Below the pieces are notes generated by a model. That model was not told the DNA's origin, searched no databases, and saw only the letters and a program-made list of their open reading frames with translations. A stretch of 32,301 nucleotides of DNA. Source: a virus. How positions within the stretch are numbered: position 1 is the stretch's first letter; each line of letters opens with the position of its first letter. A program made the position numbers and the translations under genes. Below, in pieces: positions 4,081 through 32,160 of the stretch. The DNA is taken from the IMG/VR virus record IMGVR_UViG_3300038701_002077, positions 1 through 32,301 of that record, one strand, 5' to 3'.

Positions 4081-4232
4081 TGCTTTAACTCCCTTTCCAT
4101 TTTCGTGATACGTGCCGGCTTTGACCATGCCGGTTCTTTCATCACACCCCGTTTCACCAACCGCAGCGCCGCCATATTGCTATATAATCCCGTCACAATA
4201 TCCAGCACCCTTGTGTCTTGATTAGATCGCAC
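4077..4232 (-). CDS. Small soluble protein in lysis cassette
   Basis: Encodes 51 residues from a GTG at 4232, preceded by a G-rich stretch inside the end of the upstream membrane-protein gene. The sequence is basic and amphipathic (LDIVTGLYSNMAALRLVKRG, then KMERELKH). It overlaps the upstream gene by 11 bases and the holin start by four, which suggests coupled translation. Lysis cassettes often hold a small regulator or antiholin in this place; that role is only a guess. The start is uncertain because all three genes here lack a good ATG. Confidence 0.5.
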   Translation of the reverse strand: MRSNQDTRVLDIVTGLYSNMAALRLVKRGVMKEPAWSKPARITKMERELKH

Positions 4233-4794
4233 CTGCAAAACCCACCCCCAACACAACACCAAACAGAATTTCAGCCACCCACACACGGATCAAACGCGCA
4301 AGATCCGCAAAATTCTTCTGAAATAAATGGCTAAGAAAATAGCAAATCGGCATCGTTAAGCCGTAAAGCACCAATAAAGGCGCCTGAAATAAGAAAACAA
4401 ACGGCAACACTGTCAAGACACCGCGCAAGGCCAACCCTGCCGCGCCCCACAATCTGGGCTTGTCTGTTAGGTTTTCAATAAATTGATCGATCGGCTCCCA
4501 TTCGACAAGCGCCGTTTTCGCTGCGCCGTTCAATGCCTGCACATATCGGCCAAGACCAGGAGAAACACCCAACAACCAGGCGGCGGCCGCCAAAAAACAA
4601 AACTCAACATTCTGCGTGGCAAGGTAGAAATAGACCGCAATCAATAAAGAGCTGGCGACCTTCCCATCCAGCAAACGATCTAATATTTTACTGCCTTCAC
4701 GTAGATCCCGCACACTTGATATTTGATTAAGCTGACCACCCTTGAAAAGATACGCAACTGTAAAAACCAGAATAATAATAAGTGAATGTGTCAA
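4222..4794 (-). CDS. Multi-pass membrane protein
   Basis: Encodes 190 residues with several hydrophobic stretches: residues 1-17, about 50-80 (two spans, SSLLIAVYFYLA and FCFLAAAAWLLGVSP), about 120-155 (VLTVLPFVFLFQAPLLVLYGL) and the C-terminus (ILFGVVLGVGFAGAI). The start is a TTG at 4794 with AAAGGGG upstream, three bases after the preceding stop; no ATG is suitably placed. Similar polytopic proteins of unknown role lie between tail-fibre and lysis genes in other podoviruses, with a central LGVSPGLGR-type motif. It could assist lysis timing or modify the envelope. Function is unassigned. Confidence 0.7.
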   Translation of the reverse strand: MTHSLIIILVFTVAYLFKGGQLNQISSVRDLREGSKILDRLLDGKVASSLLIAVYFYLATQNVEFCFLAAAAWLLGVSPGLGRYVQALNGAAKTALVEWEPIDQFIENLTDKPRLWGAAGLALRGVLTVLPFVFLFQAPLLVLYGLTMPICYFLSHLFQKNFADLARLIRVWVAEILFGVVLGVGFAGAI

Positions 4795-4796
4795 AA

Positions 4797-5114
4797 CTAT
4801 GCCCCTTTATCTTTGTTTACCAACAGCCAACGCCCCAAAGCGTCATCCATGTCCTGCGTCATTTTATCCCCTTGCAATCGGCGATAATTCATTTCTGCCA
4901 TGATTGCGTTTATATAATCACGATCTGTATAACCATCGTCTTTCAAGTCTTTGGACTGCGCCTTTTTTGCTTTGCGCGGCGGCGCGGAAAACGTATTGTG
5001 TTTGCCCTTAACCATGCCGCAAACCGTATTTTTCGGAACGGCCTTAAATCCTTTTTCTGGATATGGCTGCACCTGGACGACAACACCCTTTTCAATCTTT
5101 GCGTATTTTTGCAT
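4797..5114 (-). CDS. Putative tail-fibre accessory/assembly protein
   Basis: Encodes 105 residues starting at an ATG that shares its first base with the stop of the tail-fibre gene; AAAGGT lies upstream. The N-terminus (YAKIEKGVVVQVQPYPEKGF...VCGMV) resembles the short beta-domain found at the start of small phage proteins encoded directly after fibre genes. A Lys-rich linker and a C-terminal helical domain (YINAIMAEMNYRRLQGDKM) follow. The place and layout suggest a fibre chaperone or a fibre-associated protein. The assignment is by context, not by a strong motif. Confidence 0.55.
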   Translation of the reverse strand: MQKYAKIEKGVVVQVQPYPEKGFKAVPKNTVCGMVKGKHNTFSAPPRKAKKAQSKDLKDDGYTDRDYINAIMAEMNYRRLQGDKMTQDMDDALGRWLLVNKDKGA

Positions 5115-27560: not shown

Positions 27561-27920
27561 TTACATCCCGTCCCCGTCTTCCGATTGGTCATGTGATAGT
27601 CTCCTGATCCTGTTCTCCATCGCTTCTAACCGATCTTTTAATGCAGACAGATCGTCGATCAGACGTGTCTGCGCAGAATAATCCGTATCCGGAAATAAAA
27701 GATCAGCCACAGCGGCCACTCCAAATAATGACGCCGCCCGCAATACCTGTTTTATTCCGGGCGTGTTTCCGTCCAACCACCCGCGGGCCGTTCGGACAGC
27801 ACAATCAAAATCCCCCGCGATCAATTTTGCCGCGTGTGGTTTGTTGTACTGCTCTCTCAAAAACTGCGACCATCTGTCACCCAGATCGCATTTGTGAAAT
27901 TCATTGCATTCTTTTGACAT
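27561..27920 (-). CDS. Putative HTH regulator of the leftward operon
   Basis: Encodes 119 residues. ATG 27920 is preferred (AGGG six to ten bases upstream); the frame is open to 28013, where an ATGA overlap with the Cro-like stop gives an alternative but odd-looking N-terminus. Residues 25-75 (HAAKLIAGDFDCAVRTARGWLDGNTPGIKQVLRAA...) fit a helix-turn-helix in which TARGWLDG takes the recognition-helix place, as in small phage XRE-like proteins. A coiled-coil C-terminus (LIDDLSALKDRLEAMENRIRR) could give dimers. A 20-base imperfect palindrome lies just upstream. A delayed-early activator role is possible. Confidence 0.6.
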   Translation of the reverse strand: MSKECNEFHKCDLGDRWSQFLREQYNKPHAAKLIAGDFDCAVRTARGWLDGNTPGIKQVLRAASLFGVAAVADLLFPDTDYSAQTRLIDDLSALKDRLEAMENRIRRLSHDQSEDGDGM

Positions 27921-27938
27921 CGTTTTTCCCTGCCTTTT

Positions 27939-27958
27939 GTGCGAAGTTGATTTCACAC
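27939..27958. promoter_or_regulatory. Imperfect palindrome upstream of second HTH gene
   Basis: GTGCGAA-N6-TTCACAC is an inverted repeat matching at six of seven positions per arm. It lies 19-38 bases upstream of the chosen start of the 119-residue HTH gene, a fitting place for an operator. The motif differs from the CMAACA-N3-TGTTKG operators, so a different regulator would bind it. Confidence 0.35.
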
Positions 27959-28009
27959 GACGCAATGCAGGGGCAGACAATGATCCTTGTATATGTTGAG
28001 ACCGGTGCA

Positions 28010-28276
28010 TCATGCGACGACCTCACGATAATGTTGTGGATGTTTTGATATTGGTCTTTGTTGGTAGCGCGGCCCAATATCTAAAGATGGAAGATCATAA
28101 AAATCGTCTGGTCTCACATGGCCGTTTGACCAGACAAAAATACTTTTCATTTCATCTTTTCGGGGGATACGTTTCCCCTTTGTCCAATTATAAACAGCTT
28201 CAGGACTGACATTCAGCGCGCGGGCCGCATCAGTCGGGGATAAATTCTGTTCATGTATGTAGCGTTTCAATTTCAT
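28010..28276 (-). CDS. Cro-like HTH protein, first gene of the leftward operon
   Basis: Encodes 88 residues. The N-terminal 55 form a Cro/CI-type helix-turn-helix: MKLKRYIHEQNLSPTDAARA, LNVSPEAVYNWTKGKRIPR. The C-terminus (RYQQRPISKHPQHYR) is basic and probably disordered. It is the divergent partner of the repressor gene, as Cro is to CI, and would help commit to lytic growth. The -10 of its promoter ends eight bases before the ATG, so the mRNA should have almost no leader. No ribosome-binding site is visible. Confidence 0.8.
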   Translation of the reverse strand: MKLKRYIHEQNLSPTDAARALNVSPEAVYNWTKGKRIPRKDEMKSIFVWSNGHVRPDDFYDLPSLDIGPRYQQRPISKHPQHYREVVA

Positions 28277-28283
28277 AGATACA

Positions 28284-28312
28284 ATTCAAACAAAATGTTG
28301 GACGCAAGTCAA
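28284..28312 (-). promoter_or_regulatory. Leftward promoter (lytic/replication operon)
   Basis: On the minus strand TTGACT (28312-28307), a 17-base spacer and TTGAAT (28289-28284). Operator O1 (28287-28301) covers the spacer and -10. The predicted start site falls within a base or two of the Cro-like ATG at 28276. The same promoter plan occurs in inverted copy at 29289. Confidence 0.7.
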
Positions 28313-28361
28313 CATCTTTTTCCAACACAATGTTGGTTTACAGCAAAAAACAATTTGTTGG
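28287..28361. promoter_or_regulatory. Left operator cluster O1-O3
   Basis: Three copies of the 15-base site CMAACA-N3-TGTTKG: O1 28287-28301 (CAAACAAAATGTTGG), O2 28322-28336 (CCAACACAATGTTGG, perfect palindromic arms) and O3 28347-28361 (AAAACAATTTGTTGG, weaker left arm). O1 overlaps the leftward promoter; O3 lies just before the repressor ATG at 28373, suiting autoregulation. Two more sites are at 29265 and 29301. Confidence 0.75.
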
Positions 28362-28372
28362 AAAATAAGCCC

Positions 28373-28747
28373 ATGAAAAACAAGAACTTTATAAAAGATA
28401 TTCGTGACGATCGTGGCCTAAGTTTGGAAGAACTTGCGCAGCGCATGAACACGACCAACCAACAAATCAGCAATTTGGAACTTGGTAAAAGAAAATTAAG
28501 CTGGGACTGGATGCAGCGCTTGGCGGGCGCGCTGGAATGCCACCCGATGGATCTTGTCGAAGGGCTACCAACAGCCGAAACCAAACAAGAGAAAGAACTT
28601 TTAGACGCCTATCGCGGCCTATCGGATGGCGAACAAAGGATGTTTGGCAATATGCTCAAATCCTTATCCGACGGCGATCACAAAAAACAGACTGAAAAAG
28701 ATAATATAAGCGATGACGATAAAAAAGAAAATACAACAACATCCTAA
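28373..28747 (+). CDS. CI-like prophage repressor, single domain
   Basis: Encodes 124 residues. ATG 28373 is chosen because it lies right after operator O3 and begins the HTH domain; the open frame upstream runs through the operators. Residues 8-62 form an XRE helix-turn-helix (LSLEELAQRMNTTNQQISNLELGKRKLS). A helical segment follows (ETKQEKELLDAYRGLSDGEQ), then a highly charged tail. There is no S24/LexA-type protease domain, so RecA-stimulated self-cleavage is not expected. It is the first gene of the lysogeny cassette and overlaps the next gene by 35 bases. Confidence 0.8.
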   Translation: MKNKNFIKDIRDDRGLSLEELAQRMNTTNQQISNLELGKRKLSWDWMQRLAGALECHPMDLVEGLPTAETKQEKELLDAYRGLSDGEQRMFGNMLKSLSDGDHKKQTEKDNISDDDKKENTTTS

Positions 28748-28943
28748 AATTGTTATAGCATGCGCCACTGTCTTTATAACATTATGGCTCATCACAGAAC
28801 TGTCATTTGCCCTGATCGAACACAACACCATCTTGGAAAAACACGCACAATTTTGCGAAAAACGTTGCATTCTTTCTGGCTCACGCCCTACTATGAACCC
28901 CAACGAAGCCATACAGTGCATTCGCCAATGTATAAAACAGTAA
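28713..28943 (+). CDS. Single-span membrane protein with periplasmic twin CX3C
   Basis: Encodes 76 residues. A basic N-terminus (TIKKKIQQHPK) and one hydrophobic span (about 13-35) predict an N-in, C-out inner-membrane protein. The roughly 40-residue outer part carries two CX3C motifs, Cys48/Cys52 and Cys69/Cys73, 16 residues apart, suited to a helical hairpin held by two disulfides. The start overlaps the repressor gene and the ribosome-binding site is weak, so translation is probably coupled. Expression with the repressor suggests a lysogenic-conversion role such as superinfection exclusion. I do not recognise the family. Confidence 0.65.
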   Translation: MTIKKKIQQHPKIVIACATVFITLWLITELSFALIEHNTILEKHAQFCEKRCILSGSRPTMNPNEAIQCIRQCIKQ

Positions 28944-28954
28944 GGAAAACCATC

Positions 28955-29167
28955 ATGAAAAAAATCTTATATGCCGTGCCGGTCTTGGCACTTCTCGCAG
29001 GCTGCGCCCCAGGAAAACAACTTGCAGTCATGCAACACCCAAAAACAAAAGACGTCGTACAATGCAAAGTCGGCGAAGATGATATTTTTTCAAACGATCC
29101 ACTCGGCCATTGCATACGCGCCTATGAAAAGGCTGGCTATAAAAGAATTGACGAACACGCCGAGTAA
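28955..29167 (+). CDS. Small lipoprotein of the lysogeny cassette
   Basis: Encodes 70 residues with a lipoprotein signal: MKK start, hydrophobic stretch and lipobox LLAGC with Cys17 lipidated. Residue +2 is Ala, so outer-membrane sorting by Lol is expected. The mature part is about 53 residues with two further cysteines (VVQCKV, GHCIRAYEKAGY) that could form one disulfide. TAAGGA precedes ATG 28955. It follows the twin-CX3C protein by 11 bases and is the last gene before a strong terminator. Small phage lipoproteins made in the lysogen often block outer-membrane receptors of related phages; that is inferred here. Confidence 0.78.
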   Translation: MKKILYAVPVLALLAGCAPGKQLAVMQHPKTKDVVQCKVGEDDIFSNDPLGHCIRAYEKAGYKRIDEHAE

Positions 29168-29186
29168 AACACAAACACTCCATTGG

Positions 29187-29213
29187 AAACCGCCACTTGC
29201 TGGCGGTTTTTTT
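29187..29213 (+). terminator. Intrinsic terminator of the repressor operon
   Basis: AAACCGCCA (29187-29195), loop CTTGC, TGGCGGTTT (29201-29209), then the U-run continues to 29213. It separates the lysogeny transcript from the rightward promoter at 29289. Confidence 0.92.
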
Positions 29214-29264
29214 CGCTTTAAAATCCCCGTATTCAAAGACTAAAACACCCTAAAACACATTTTA

Positions 29265-29315
29265 CAAACATTTTGTTGGAAAAAGATGTTGACATTCAAT
29301 CCAACATATTGTTTG
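29265..29315. promoter_or_regulatory. Right operator pair O4-O5
   Basis: O4 at 29265-29279 (CAAACATTTTGTTGG) and O5 at 29301-29315 (CCAACATATTGTTTG) match CMAACA-N3-TGTTKG. The block 29265-29318 is an inverted copy of 28284-28336, including the GATGTTGAC -35 region and the AAAAAGATG spacer. O5 covers the spacer and -10 of the rightward promoter. Confidence 0.78.
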
Positions 29316-29318
29316 AAT
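29289..29318 (+). promoter_or_regulatory. Rightward promoter (integration/early operon)
   Basis: TTGACA (29289-29294), an 18-base spacer and TTGAAT (29313-29318). It is the mirror image of the leftward promoter at 28312-28284, with one extra base in the spacer. Transcription should start near 29325, just before the GAGGAG ribosome-binding site of the 35-residue peptide. Confidence 0.72.
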
Positions 29319-29343
29319 ATGAGGGAAGAGGAGAAAAACAACA

Positions 29344-29451
29344 ATGTTTTTATGGTCACAAATTAACAAACTGAAACAAGCCTTGCGCCGTATCAAACGC
29401 CGCATGCGCCCAATCGGACAACTGCCAAAAACATGGAGGCCCAACAAATGA
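29344..29451 (+). CDS. 35-residue basic peptide, first gene of the rightward operon
   Basis: A short frame beginning MFLWSQINKLKQALRRIKRR and ending KTWRPNK. It has a good ribosome-binding site (GAGGAG, ten bases before the ATG) directly downstream of the repressible promoter, and its TGA overlaps the next ATG as ATGA. It is strongly basic with an amphipathic helix. It may be a functional micro-protein (anti-repressor, DNA-binding or membrane-active) or a leader for coupled translation of the AlpA-like gene. No similarity is recognised. Confidence 0.6.
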   Translation: MFLWSQINKLKQALRRIKRRMRPIGQLPKTWRPNK

Positions 29452-29732
29452 GCATGCGCAGATTATTAAACACCGAACAAGTCGCCGAAAAAATCGGCTA
29501 TTCCAAAGACTGGTTTATTCGCAACAAAGAAAGCCTTTTCAAACAAGGTTTTCCACGCCCAACGCTGGGCGACAAACCGCACGGCCGCGCCCGCTTTGAC
29601 GACAGCGCAATCGATGCCTGGCTGGACAGCCGCATGCCCAAAGAATTGCGCAACACCCGCGCCGAAGTCTCCCGCGCTGCCGAAGATTGGAGCGCCGTTC
29701 TCGAAACCCGTGCAGAGGGAATCAGTCTATGA
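29448..29732 (+). CDS. AlpA/Xis-like winged-helix protein (putative excisionase)
   Basis: Encodes 94 residues from ATG 29448, with GGAGG nine bases upstream; an in-frame ATG at 29433 lies before that site. The protein reads LLNTEQVAEKIGYSKDWFIRN...FPRPTLGDKPHGRARFDDSAIDAWLDSR, the AlpA/MerR-like excisionase pattern: HTH, a wing ending in R.RFD, then IDAWL. Such proteins bend attP/attR DNA and steer integrase toward excision. It lies in the same operon as the integrase, two small genes upstream of it. It may also regulate transcription. It starts and ends in ATGA overlaps. Confidence 0.78.
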   Translation: MSMRRLLNTEQVAEKIGYSKDWFIRNKESLFKQGFPRPTLGDKPHGRARFDDSAIDAWLDSRMPKELRNTRAEVSRAAEDWSAVLETRAEGISL

Positions 29733-30309: not shown

Positions 30310-31431
30310 ATGGCAAAAATACGCATCCGATATTTCACAACCCGCCCAGGCAAAAACGGCACAGAACGTTATTTCTGGCAACCCAGAACCGAACTGATAA
30401 AGGCGGGCTGGAAAATACAACGCCTGTCCAACAACAAAACAACCGCCCTGCAGGAAGCCGAACGCTTAAATGCCGATCTGGATAAATGGCGCGACGGGTT
30501 AAGGGAAAGCCCAACCAATGCAAAACAAGGATCCATTGAAGCCTTAATACAATCCTTTAAAAACAGCCACCGCTGGAAAGACCTTGCGCCCAAAACCCAA
30601 GAATCCTATCAGTATTGTTTGAAAATAATTATGCGTTGGGCGGGCGATGCACCGGCACGCGCCTTAACCCGAAAAATTGTGCATAATTTTTATCGCTCTA
30701 TGTATGAAAAAACACCGGCAAAGGCCGCCGCTGTTTTGCGTGTCTTGCGTCTGTTGTTGCAATACGCTGTTGATGAAGACATCTTGCACGACAACCCCGC
30801 CACAAAACAACGCATCAAAAACACCGCCAAGAAAGGCATCTTATGGACACCTGCCGCGATCAAGGCTTTTGCAACAACCGCCGATAACATGGGGCAACAC
30901 GGCCATGCCAGTGCCGTTATTCTTAACGAATGGCTGGGGCAACGCATGGGCGATATTCTCAACATGTCACTGGCATCGTATCAAGACGGCAACATCAAAC
31001 TGCGCCAAAACAAAACAGGCGCAACGGTCACATTGCCGGTTGATATTATCCCCAAAATTGCCGACCGCATCAGCTGGCAGATCAACCATAACAAAAACCT
31101 GCCGGTTGTGCCGACGGTCTTGATCGCCCAGGCAAATGGCCAACCCTTTAAAAAAGATTGGTTTGCCCATCTGTTTGCAAAGATCCGCGCCCAGGCCATC
31201 ACCGAACATCCGGACGTGCCGGAACTCAAAGACATGATTTTCAAAAACCTACGCCACACGGCCGTCACACGCATGGCGGAAAGCGGCTGTGAAATTTTGG
31301 AAATCGCAGCTGTCACCGGACACACCGCACAATCTTGCCAAAACATTGTCGATCGCTATGCGATCCGCACAAAGAAAATGGCAGAAAACGCCTTCCGCAA
31401 ACGACAAACCGCAGAAGAAAACCAAACTTAA
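30310..31431 (+). CDS. int: Tyrosine-recombinase integrase
   Basis: Encodes 373 residues. The N-terminal 60-70 resemble an arm-binding domain (MAKIRIRYFTTRPGKNGTERYFWQPR); residues 74-165 are the SAM-like core-binding domain; the rest is catalytic. Active-site residues are Arg212 (GQRMGDIL), Lys235 (NKTGA), Arg315 in LRHTAVTRM, His338 (TGHT) and the nucleophile Tyr350 (VDRYAIRT). The usual first His of HxxR is Lys312, a common variant. AAAGGAG precedes the ATG. The phage integrates at tRNA-Arg through the attP at 2748-2793, about 3.4 kb away on the circle. Confidence 0.93.
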   Translation: MAKIRIRYFTTRPGKNGTERYFWQPRTELIKAGWKIQRLSNNKTTALQEAERLNADLDKWRDGLRESPTNAKQGSIEALIQSFKNSHRWKDLAPKTQESYQYCLKIIMRWAGDAPARALTRKIVHNFYRSMYEKTPAKAAAVLRVLRLLLQYAVDEDILHDNPATKQRIKNTAKKGILWTPAAIKAFATTADNMGQHGHASAVILNEWLGQRMGDILNMSLASYQDGNIKLRQNKTGATVTLPVDIIPKIADRISWQINHNKNLPVVPTVLIAQANGQPFKKDWFAHLFAKIRAQAITEHPDVPELKDMIFKNLRHTAVTRMAESGCEILEIAAVTGHTAQSCQNIVDRYAIRTKKMAENAFRKRQTAEENQT

Positions 31432-31454: not shown

Positions 31455-31778
31455 ATGAGAAACGACACTTTAAAAACCACAGACTTGAAAGATGAAAAAG
31501 AACTTTTTGAAAAAATCCATGATGCCATCAAACAAGTGGAAGCAGAAAACAAAGGCATCCTTCTTATAACCTTTGAAGAAACCGAAGATCATATATTTAA
31601 GACGCAACAAGTTATTAACAATGTTTCGCCAGCACAGATCGCTATTGGACTACGTGGATTAATTAAAGCATTTCCAAACATTCTTGATGCCCTGCTGAAA
31701 GAAGCCATTGCCGATCTAAAAGAAAATGCCCGTAACGACCCTGCACAAGAAAAGGACAAAGAAAATGACGCAGCCTAA
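31455..31778 (+). CDS. Hypothetical acidic protein
   Basis: Encodes 107 residues from ATG 31455 with AGGAG just upstream; open frame further upstream is inside the integrase gene. The protein is helical and acidic (DEKELFEKIHDAIKQVEAEN), with a middle beta-like segment (GILLITFEETEDHIF) and a hydrophobic helix (PAQIAIGLRGLIKAFPNILDALLKEAIADL), ending in a charged tail. No motif is recognised. It overlaps the XRE regulator by 14 bases and may be co-regulated with it; an antitoxin- or modulator-like role cannot be tested here. Confidence 0.65.
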   Translation: MRNDTLKTTDLKDEKELFEKIHDAIKQVEAENKGILLITFEETEDHIFKTQQVINNVSPAQIAIGLRGLIKAFPNILDALLKEAIADLKENARNDPAQEKDKENDAA

Positions 31779-32160
31779 CAACGAACACCGCATTGACATC
31801 GAAGTCGGCCGCCGCTTAAAGCAGCTCCGCAAGATGAAGGGATACAGCCAAGCGTCTTTGGCGCGGGCTGTTGGCATCACGTTCCAGCAAATTCAGAAAT
31901 ACGAAAATGCAAAGAACCGCCTGTCCGTGTCCCGTTTAACCGCCATTGCACATGTCTTGCAAGTGCCGTTTTCCACCTTTGTTGATCCGGACGCATGCGT
32001 CCCTGGCGTCAACATCGACGGATCCGCGCCCTTGCTAAAAGAATGGCAAAACATCCACAACCCAGAGGACAGAAAACTTGTCTTAAACTTAGCAAAAACA
32101 CTGGCCCAACAAGAACAAACCCGCTGCAAAAACACGCTCGACATGTTTGCCGCAGCATAA
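31765..32160 (+). CDS. XRE-family HTH regulator of alphaproteobacterial type
   Basis: Encodes 131 residues from ATG 31765 (AAAGGA upstream); it overlaps the previous gene. Residues 10-70 are a strong XRE domain: IDIEVGRRLKQLRKMKGYSQ, ASLARAVGITFQQIQKYENA, KNRLSVSRLTAIAHVLQVPF. The rest is a short helical tail with no protease domain. The GITFQQIQKYENA.NR recognition region is typical of small XRE regulators in alphaproteobacterial chromosomes, so the gene may derive from the host. Placed in the rightward operon, it could counter the repressor, control early genes or alter host transcription. It differs clearly from the 28373 repressor. Confidence 0.85.
   Translation: MTQPNNEHRIDIEVGRRLKQLRKMKGYSQASLARAVGITFQQIQKYENAKNRLSVSRLTAIAHVLQVPFSTFVDPDACVPGVNIDGSAPLLKEWQNIHNPEDRKLVLNLAKTLAQQEQTRCKNTLDMFAAA

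Follow-up and report, generated by a model that had tools for sequence, protein, structure and literature searches.

A probable lambda-type immunity region with closely similar, inverted early control blocks in a podovirus-like phage record

Genes and control sites around the repressor

The DNA analysed here, hereafter the window, is the whole 32,301-base virus record IMGVR_UViG_3300038701_002077, and the repressor gene region considered lies around 28,284-29,318. A helix-turn-helix (HTH) repressor of 124 aa (HTH_3, 6.4e-10) is encoded at 28373-28747 (+), flanked in the sequence by two outward-facing early promoters, PR on the minus and PL on the plus strand. Pfam gave HTH families only for this protein, with the S24 autoproteolysis domain absent; among solved structures (PDB) it matched the 434 repressor (E 0.0026).

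Divergent from the repressor and directly after PR lies the first gene of the PR operon, encoding a Cro-like HTH protein of 88 aa (28010-28276, −) that matched HTH_3 (1.4e-06), phrog_35 (transcriptional repressor, 3.5e-07) and, weakly, P22_Cro (3.5e-05). The second gene, a 150-aa ORF from the ORF list in the cII position (27561-28013, −), is followed by replication genes, of which primase and helicase were recognised by homology and read in the PR direction. On the other side, two ORFs occupy the rex position: one of 76 aa (28713-28943, +), taken from the ORF list and with no family match, and a lipoprotein-like one of 70 aa (28955-29167, +) with LPAM_1 at 0.0042, below the cutoff. A predicted intrinsic terminator (29185-29211, +) marks the end of the repressor unit. 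The PL operon opens with a basic ORF of 35 aa (29344-29451, +), found by reading, and includes genes for an AlpA/excisionase-like HTH protein (29448-29732, +; phrog_66, excisionase and transcriptional regulator, 7e-07) and a tyrosine integrase (30310-31431, +; Phage_integrase 1e-10, phrog_1 2.9e-25). No N-like antiterminator gene was identified on inspection.

The first-pass annotation had placed CMAACA-N3-TGTTKG operators at both promoters. With at most one mismatch, this pattern occurs five times in the 32,301 bases against 0.48 expected, a count reached in 0 of 100 shuffles, and all five sites lie in or beside the two control blocks (the arms described below), with none elsewhere in the record; that claim is thus borne out. 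The sites are O1 (CAAACA-AAA-TGTTGG, 28287-28301), O2 (CCAACA-CAA-TGTTGG, 28322-28336), O3 (AAAACA-ATT-TGTTGG, 28347-28361), O4 (CAAACA-TTT-TGTTGG, 29265-29279) and O5 (CCAACA-TAT-TGTTTG, 29301-29315); O3 is one base off the consensus and sits outside the arms. One operator word is therefore common to both promoters and, as judged from these five sites in the sequence, so placed as to block them.

The promoters were assigned by reading and do point outward, as had been proposed. PR has a −35 TTGACT (28307-28312, −) and, after a 17-bp spacer, a −10 TTGAAT (28284-28289, −); PL has a −35 TTGACA (29289-29294, +) and, after 18 bp, a −10 TTGAAT (29313-29318, +). Both are absent from the list of the consensus promoter scanner, because the scanner insists on A as the second base of the −10 hexamer. 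It did report a PRM-like promoter (TTTACA-18-GAAAAT, 28337-28366, +), with 6 nt left between its −10 and the repressor ATG. O1 overlaps the PR −10, O2 is bracketed by the −35 hexamers of PR and of the PRM-like promoter, and O3 sits within the PRM-like promoter, an OR3-like position. From these positions we infer the roles of promoters and operators, the binding of the repressor and the regulation described below.

The PR −10 is 7 nt from the cro-like ATG. Distances of about 5-7 nt from −10 to ATG recur for both cro and repressor (28276 and 28373 in the window, and likewise in the two sister regions L205 and L095), which suggests that both transcripts may be leaderless.

Mirrored control blocks in the window and in other phages

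The left arm (28284-28337, −) is the PR control block with −10, O1, −35, spacer and O2, and the right arm (29264-29318, +) is the PL control block with O4, spacer, −35, O5 and −10. The alignment of 28284-28340 with the reverse complement of 29260-29320, which had been recommended as a check, was run and gave a match far above chance: minus-strand 28337-28284 and plus-strand 29264-29318 are identical in 48 of 55 columns (87%, one 1-base gap, blastn E 9e-13). Their earlier description as near-identical over about 53 bases is slightly generous, as no more than 37 of 54 positions match without the gap. The longest perfect run common to both arms is 20 bp.

Within the 4.5 kb surrounding the repressor, no inverted match scores higher than the arms (37, best of 20 shuffles 16). 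When, in a targeted test, the intergenic region between repressor and cro was compared with the sequence beyond the repressor, the inverted score was 39 (z 17.9; shuffle mean 12.4, sd 1.5, maximum 17) and the direct-orientation control scored 16. Chance or low complexity might be considered in so A+T-rich a region; with shuffles never approaching the scores of arms or operators, and the direct orientation at background, its probability is negligible.

The first-pass annotation had set the near-copy control regions in contrast to lambda. This contrast is not supported, since the annotated OL and OR of lambda are themselves related inverted blocks (38/54, z 6.1 in the inverted block test), and the difference is one of degree. 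HK97 gave 35/51 (z 3.9), phi80 32/44 (z 3.9, with a direct control of 19, as high), and P22 and D3 gave no significant inverted OL/OR block in the same test. The arms of L006, from an unrelated phage with an S24 repressor, reached 44/61 (z 11.2). Given the likeness in lambda, HK97 and L006, and possibly in phi80, inverted OL/OR resemblance is normal; among the phages put through the block test, the window has the most alike pair by score apart from L015, a relative discussed below.

Inverted, not direct, block pairs stood out in the window, L015, L098, L164, L116, L115 and L162, and each phage with such a pair has its own operator word around TTGAC. The L098 pair spans 39 bp at 92% with the operator word TTATGACA/TGTCATAA. 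Many relatives showed no significant inverted block in this test. Brute-force inverted-repeat scans were noisy in G+C-rich relatives: the pairs of L106/L143, L117, L121, L126, L149, L182 and L186 were left uncounted, G+C-rich similarity of this sort being expected in coding DNA, and that of L150 was dropped, being in and beside its integrase.

An exact operator-promoter pattern scan returned two further candidates. L007 was a chance match in structural genes. L006, rejected as a relative, belongs to an unrelated phage of the S24 type whose operator word is similar and whose OL and OR are likewise inverted. In this phage fragment (L006:4545-5543), which encodes an S24-like repressor, OL and OR both carry CCAACA-N3-TGTTGG, in what looks like an independent occurrence of the same kind of operator word.

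The plan of the window resembles lambda in the order of PR and cro, PRM and repressor, and rex-position genes, in an outward PL toward the integration side, in three OR operators with OR3 in PRM, and in having related inverted OL and OR blocks. It differs from lambda in its operator word, in a 124-aa repressor without S24, in a wider O1-O2 spacing, in having only two PL operators, in the greater likeness of PL and PR (48/55) and in that no N gene was identified. In phi80 the OR operator starts are 24 and 33 bp apart (25 and 35 in the window) and the outer operator likewise overlaps the PR −10, whereas its PL and PR blocks are less alike than those of the window and its other genes differ. The operator of phage 434 has ACAA/TTGT-type half-sites, as in L205, and the recognition-helix pattern TQQ.I..LENGK of its repressor resembles those of the window and L205; the window differs in an operator core of 15 instead of 14 bp and in a repressor without the C-terminal peptidase domain.

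Sister regions and the proposed switch

Scans of viral contigs with one protein at a time (repressor, integrase or primase) gave no matches, nor did blastn and repressor tblastn searches against phage records. Relatives were found via searches with the large terminase and helicase, and two MAGs proved to contain an orthologous immunity region, in L205 and L095. These prophage pieces (L205/L206 and L095, from Rhodospirillaceae and alphaproteobacterial MAGs) are like the window in gene region, repressor and operator places. In L205 (MAG UBA8982, Rhodospirillaceae) the repressor is 53%, AlpA 51% and the integrase 51% identical to those of the window. Its OR operators (510-522, 544-556 and 568-580, counterparts of O1, O2 and O3) start 34 and 24 bp apart, compared with 35 and 25 in IMGVR_UViG_3300038701_002077, and the position of O3 is kept; a terminator then precedes two OL operators around TTGACA. 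The PR blocks of the two phages align over 79 columns with a score of 37, against a shuffle maximum of 13. The L095 repressor is 54% identical and CAACA-type sites occur at the same three OR positions; this contig ends at the terminator, before OL, and the integrase side is on another contig.

The repressors of the window, L205 and L095 have the recognition helix QQI..LE.GKRK in common, and all three regions have the operator core CAACA-N3-TGTTG or one close to it. The best solved-structure match of the L205 repressor is again the 434 repressor, with TQQ.I..LENGK aligned. L015 and L116 differ from these three in both recognition helix and operator. As helix and operator are kept or changed together, the operator word appears to follow the recognition helix, which supports the 124-aa repressor as the probable binder of the sites.

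The window PL scores 39 against its own PR and 16 against the L205 PL. In L205, unlike the window, PL is no copy of PR: its operators are 25 bp apart in another geometry, and only one 19-bp operator is shared with the L205 PR; the rex-position gene differs as well. Since PL and PR of L205 are unlike, block identity is no constant of the group.

On these grounds we regard the region, at a probability of about 0.82, as a lambda-type immunity region of a temperate, podovirus-like phage in which the likeness of PL and PR comes from an inverted copy or from conversion. The lambda-like plan proposed before, with one HTH repressor between outward promoters with shared operators, cro and replication on one side and the AlpA-like gene and integrase on the other, is upheld by this analysis, and the regulatory reading appears well supported by comparison with relatives. 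A PRM-like promoter would drive a single HTH repressor, which on O1 and O2 would shut PR with cro, the cII-position gene and replication, and on O4 and O5 would shut PL with the AlpA-like gene and the integrase. O2 borders the PRM-like −35 on its upstream side, a place from which a lambda-like repressor could stimulate its own transcription, and O3 should shut PRM at a high repressor level; Cro would compete with the repressor for the same sites. An inverted copy of the whole PR block may have been placed beyond the repressor, or gene conversion may later have equalised the two blocks; selection by a single repressor would then have preserved operators, −35 and −10.

Origin of the paired blocks

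The clearest material on origin comes from L015 (IMGVR_UViG_3300035040_000074), the nearest whole-phage relative, with a terminase 60% identical and the same gene order. Its positions 4121-4340 and 4884-5104 are inverted copies, 98% identical over 221 columns, which hold a promoter, the operator TTGACGTCAA and some 44 codons of the repressor. The second copy is at the OL position and faces the AlpA/integrase operon; the truncated repressor that it carries continues into the remnant of an IS200-type transposase (4334-4597; Y1_Tnp 2.3e-27, profile positions 40-121). L015 and the window are therefore alike in gene order and in a PL block that is an inverted copy of PR, and differ in the extent of the copy, the truncated repressor codons, the operator word and the IS200-type relic in the cassette.

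Both copies also occur at the two ends of a second contig, IMGVR_UViG_3300035525_000091 (L114:372-592 and L195:127-346), which derives from an almost identical phage. The contig opens inside the inter-arm spacer, and so displays both copies and not their junction; the two samples may share one project. The L015 arms differ at four sites, at three of which the right arm of the second contig matches the left arms; this pattern is as compatible with gene conversion between arms as with three mutations in the right arm of L015. A chimeric assembly was held unlikely, given these four differing sites, the boundaries of the copies, which fall at the −10 and within the repressor, and the recurrence in the second contig. 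In that contig the repressor gene has A8 for an A7 homopolymer and its frame is shifted, reflecting either a real mutant or a sequencing error. L015 is direct evidence that inverted duplication of an OR region can give rise to an OL-type region.

Duplication by inversion, suggested earlier for the window itself, thus finds support for the group through the 221-column copy and is plausible for the window. The spacer from O2 or O4 to the −35, AAAAAGATG, is completely common to both blocks of the window, and at the same place the PR spacers of L205 and L095 read AAAAATCC and TTTTTCTC and do not keep it. Five bases of AAAAAGATG form an A run also found in the L205 PR, and the case for duplication is weaker here than in L015, the shared non-site sequence being short; L205 may also be the one that changed. 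For the window pair we favour the copying step, taken alone, by a modest margin of confidence.

The same lambda-type switch could instead have acquired its likeness by convergence, one repressor and a strong promoter selecting the same operators, −35, −10 and register with no duplication. The blocks of L164, L116 and L162 share operators, TTGAC and spacing and differ in their spacers, as site-only selection would leave them; PL and PR of L205 share a single operator, and in the window the identity outside operators and promoter hexamers amounts to the short AAAAAGATG. That this spacer is shared in full, and that L015 is a real block duplication including coding sequence, count against convergence, which we consider rather unlikely for the window.

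A broader proposal, offered tentatively and as something short of an even chance, is that OL/PL was repeatedly regenerated from OR/PR by inverted copying or conversion, with one repressor governing both through changes of the operator word. L015 would represent an early stage, the window and L098 a middle one, and L164, L116 and L162 a late one with only the sites alike; these block 'ages' are impressions from identity, not dates. The window is a further member of the lambda plan, and the wider interest lies in the PL/PR pairs that seem to form this series of ages, with L015 foremost among them. None of the titles and abstracts in the literature searched describes OL as the product of an inverted duplication of OR, and they leave as an open question how a two-promoter switch such as OL-cI-OR originates and how specificity changes at five sites at once. 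A phage group with block pairs of differing apparent age, one still with truncated repressor codons attached, makes the duplication route testable.

The arms had also been put forward as substrates for inversion of the enclosed cassette, which would make a phase-variable switch. Inverted arms with outward promoters do flank the cassette, and by reading, the repressor of L015 would be intact in either orientation, since codons 1 to about 44 are present in each arm. The window arms share no perfect run above those 20 bases, and neither a site-specific invertase linked to them nor an inverted form was observed; the two L015-type contigs agree in orientation, and flipping the cassette would alter neither of the outward promoters. 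We therefore did not retain this suggestion: inversion is very unlikely for the window and speculation for L015.

The small genes in the rex position (28713-29167 in the window, L205:912-1364), membrane or lipoprotein-like, differ from phage to phage, as would be expected if they are lysogenic-conversion cargo. A second HTH_3 regulator (31762-32160, +) lies beyond the integrase, at the record's end. The 150-aa cII-position protein has no Pfam match and has homologs in L095, L163, L116, L124, L098 and others, recurring at the same place. Several relatives share an FD..RTA..WL.G-like motif in this family, and in L098 and L019 the cII-position protein seems to replace cro.
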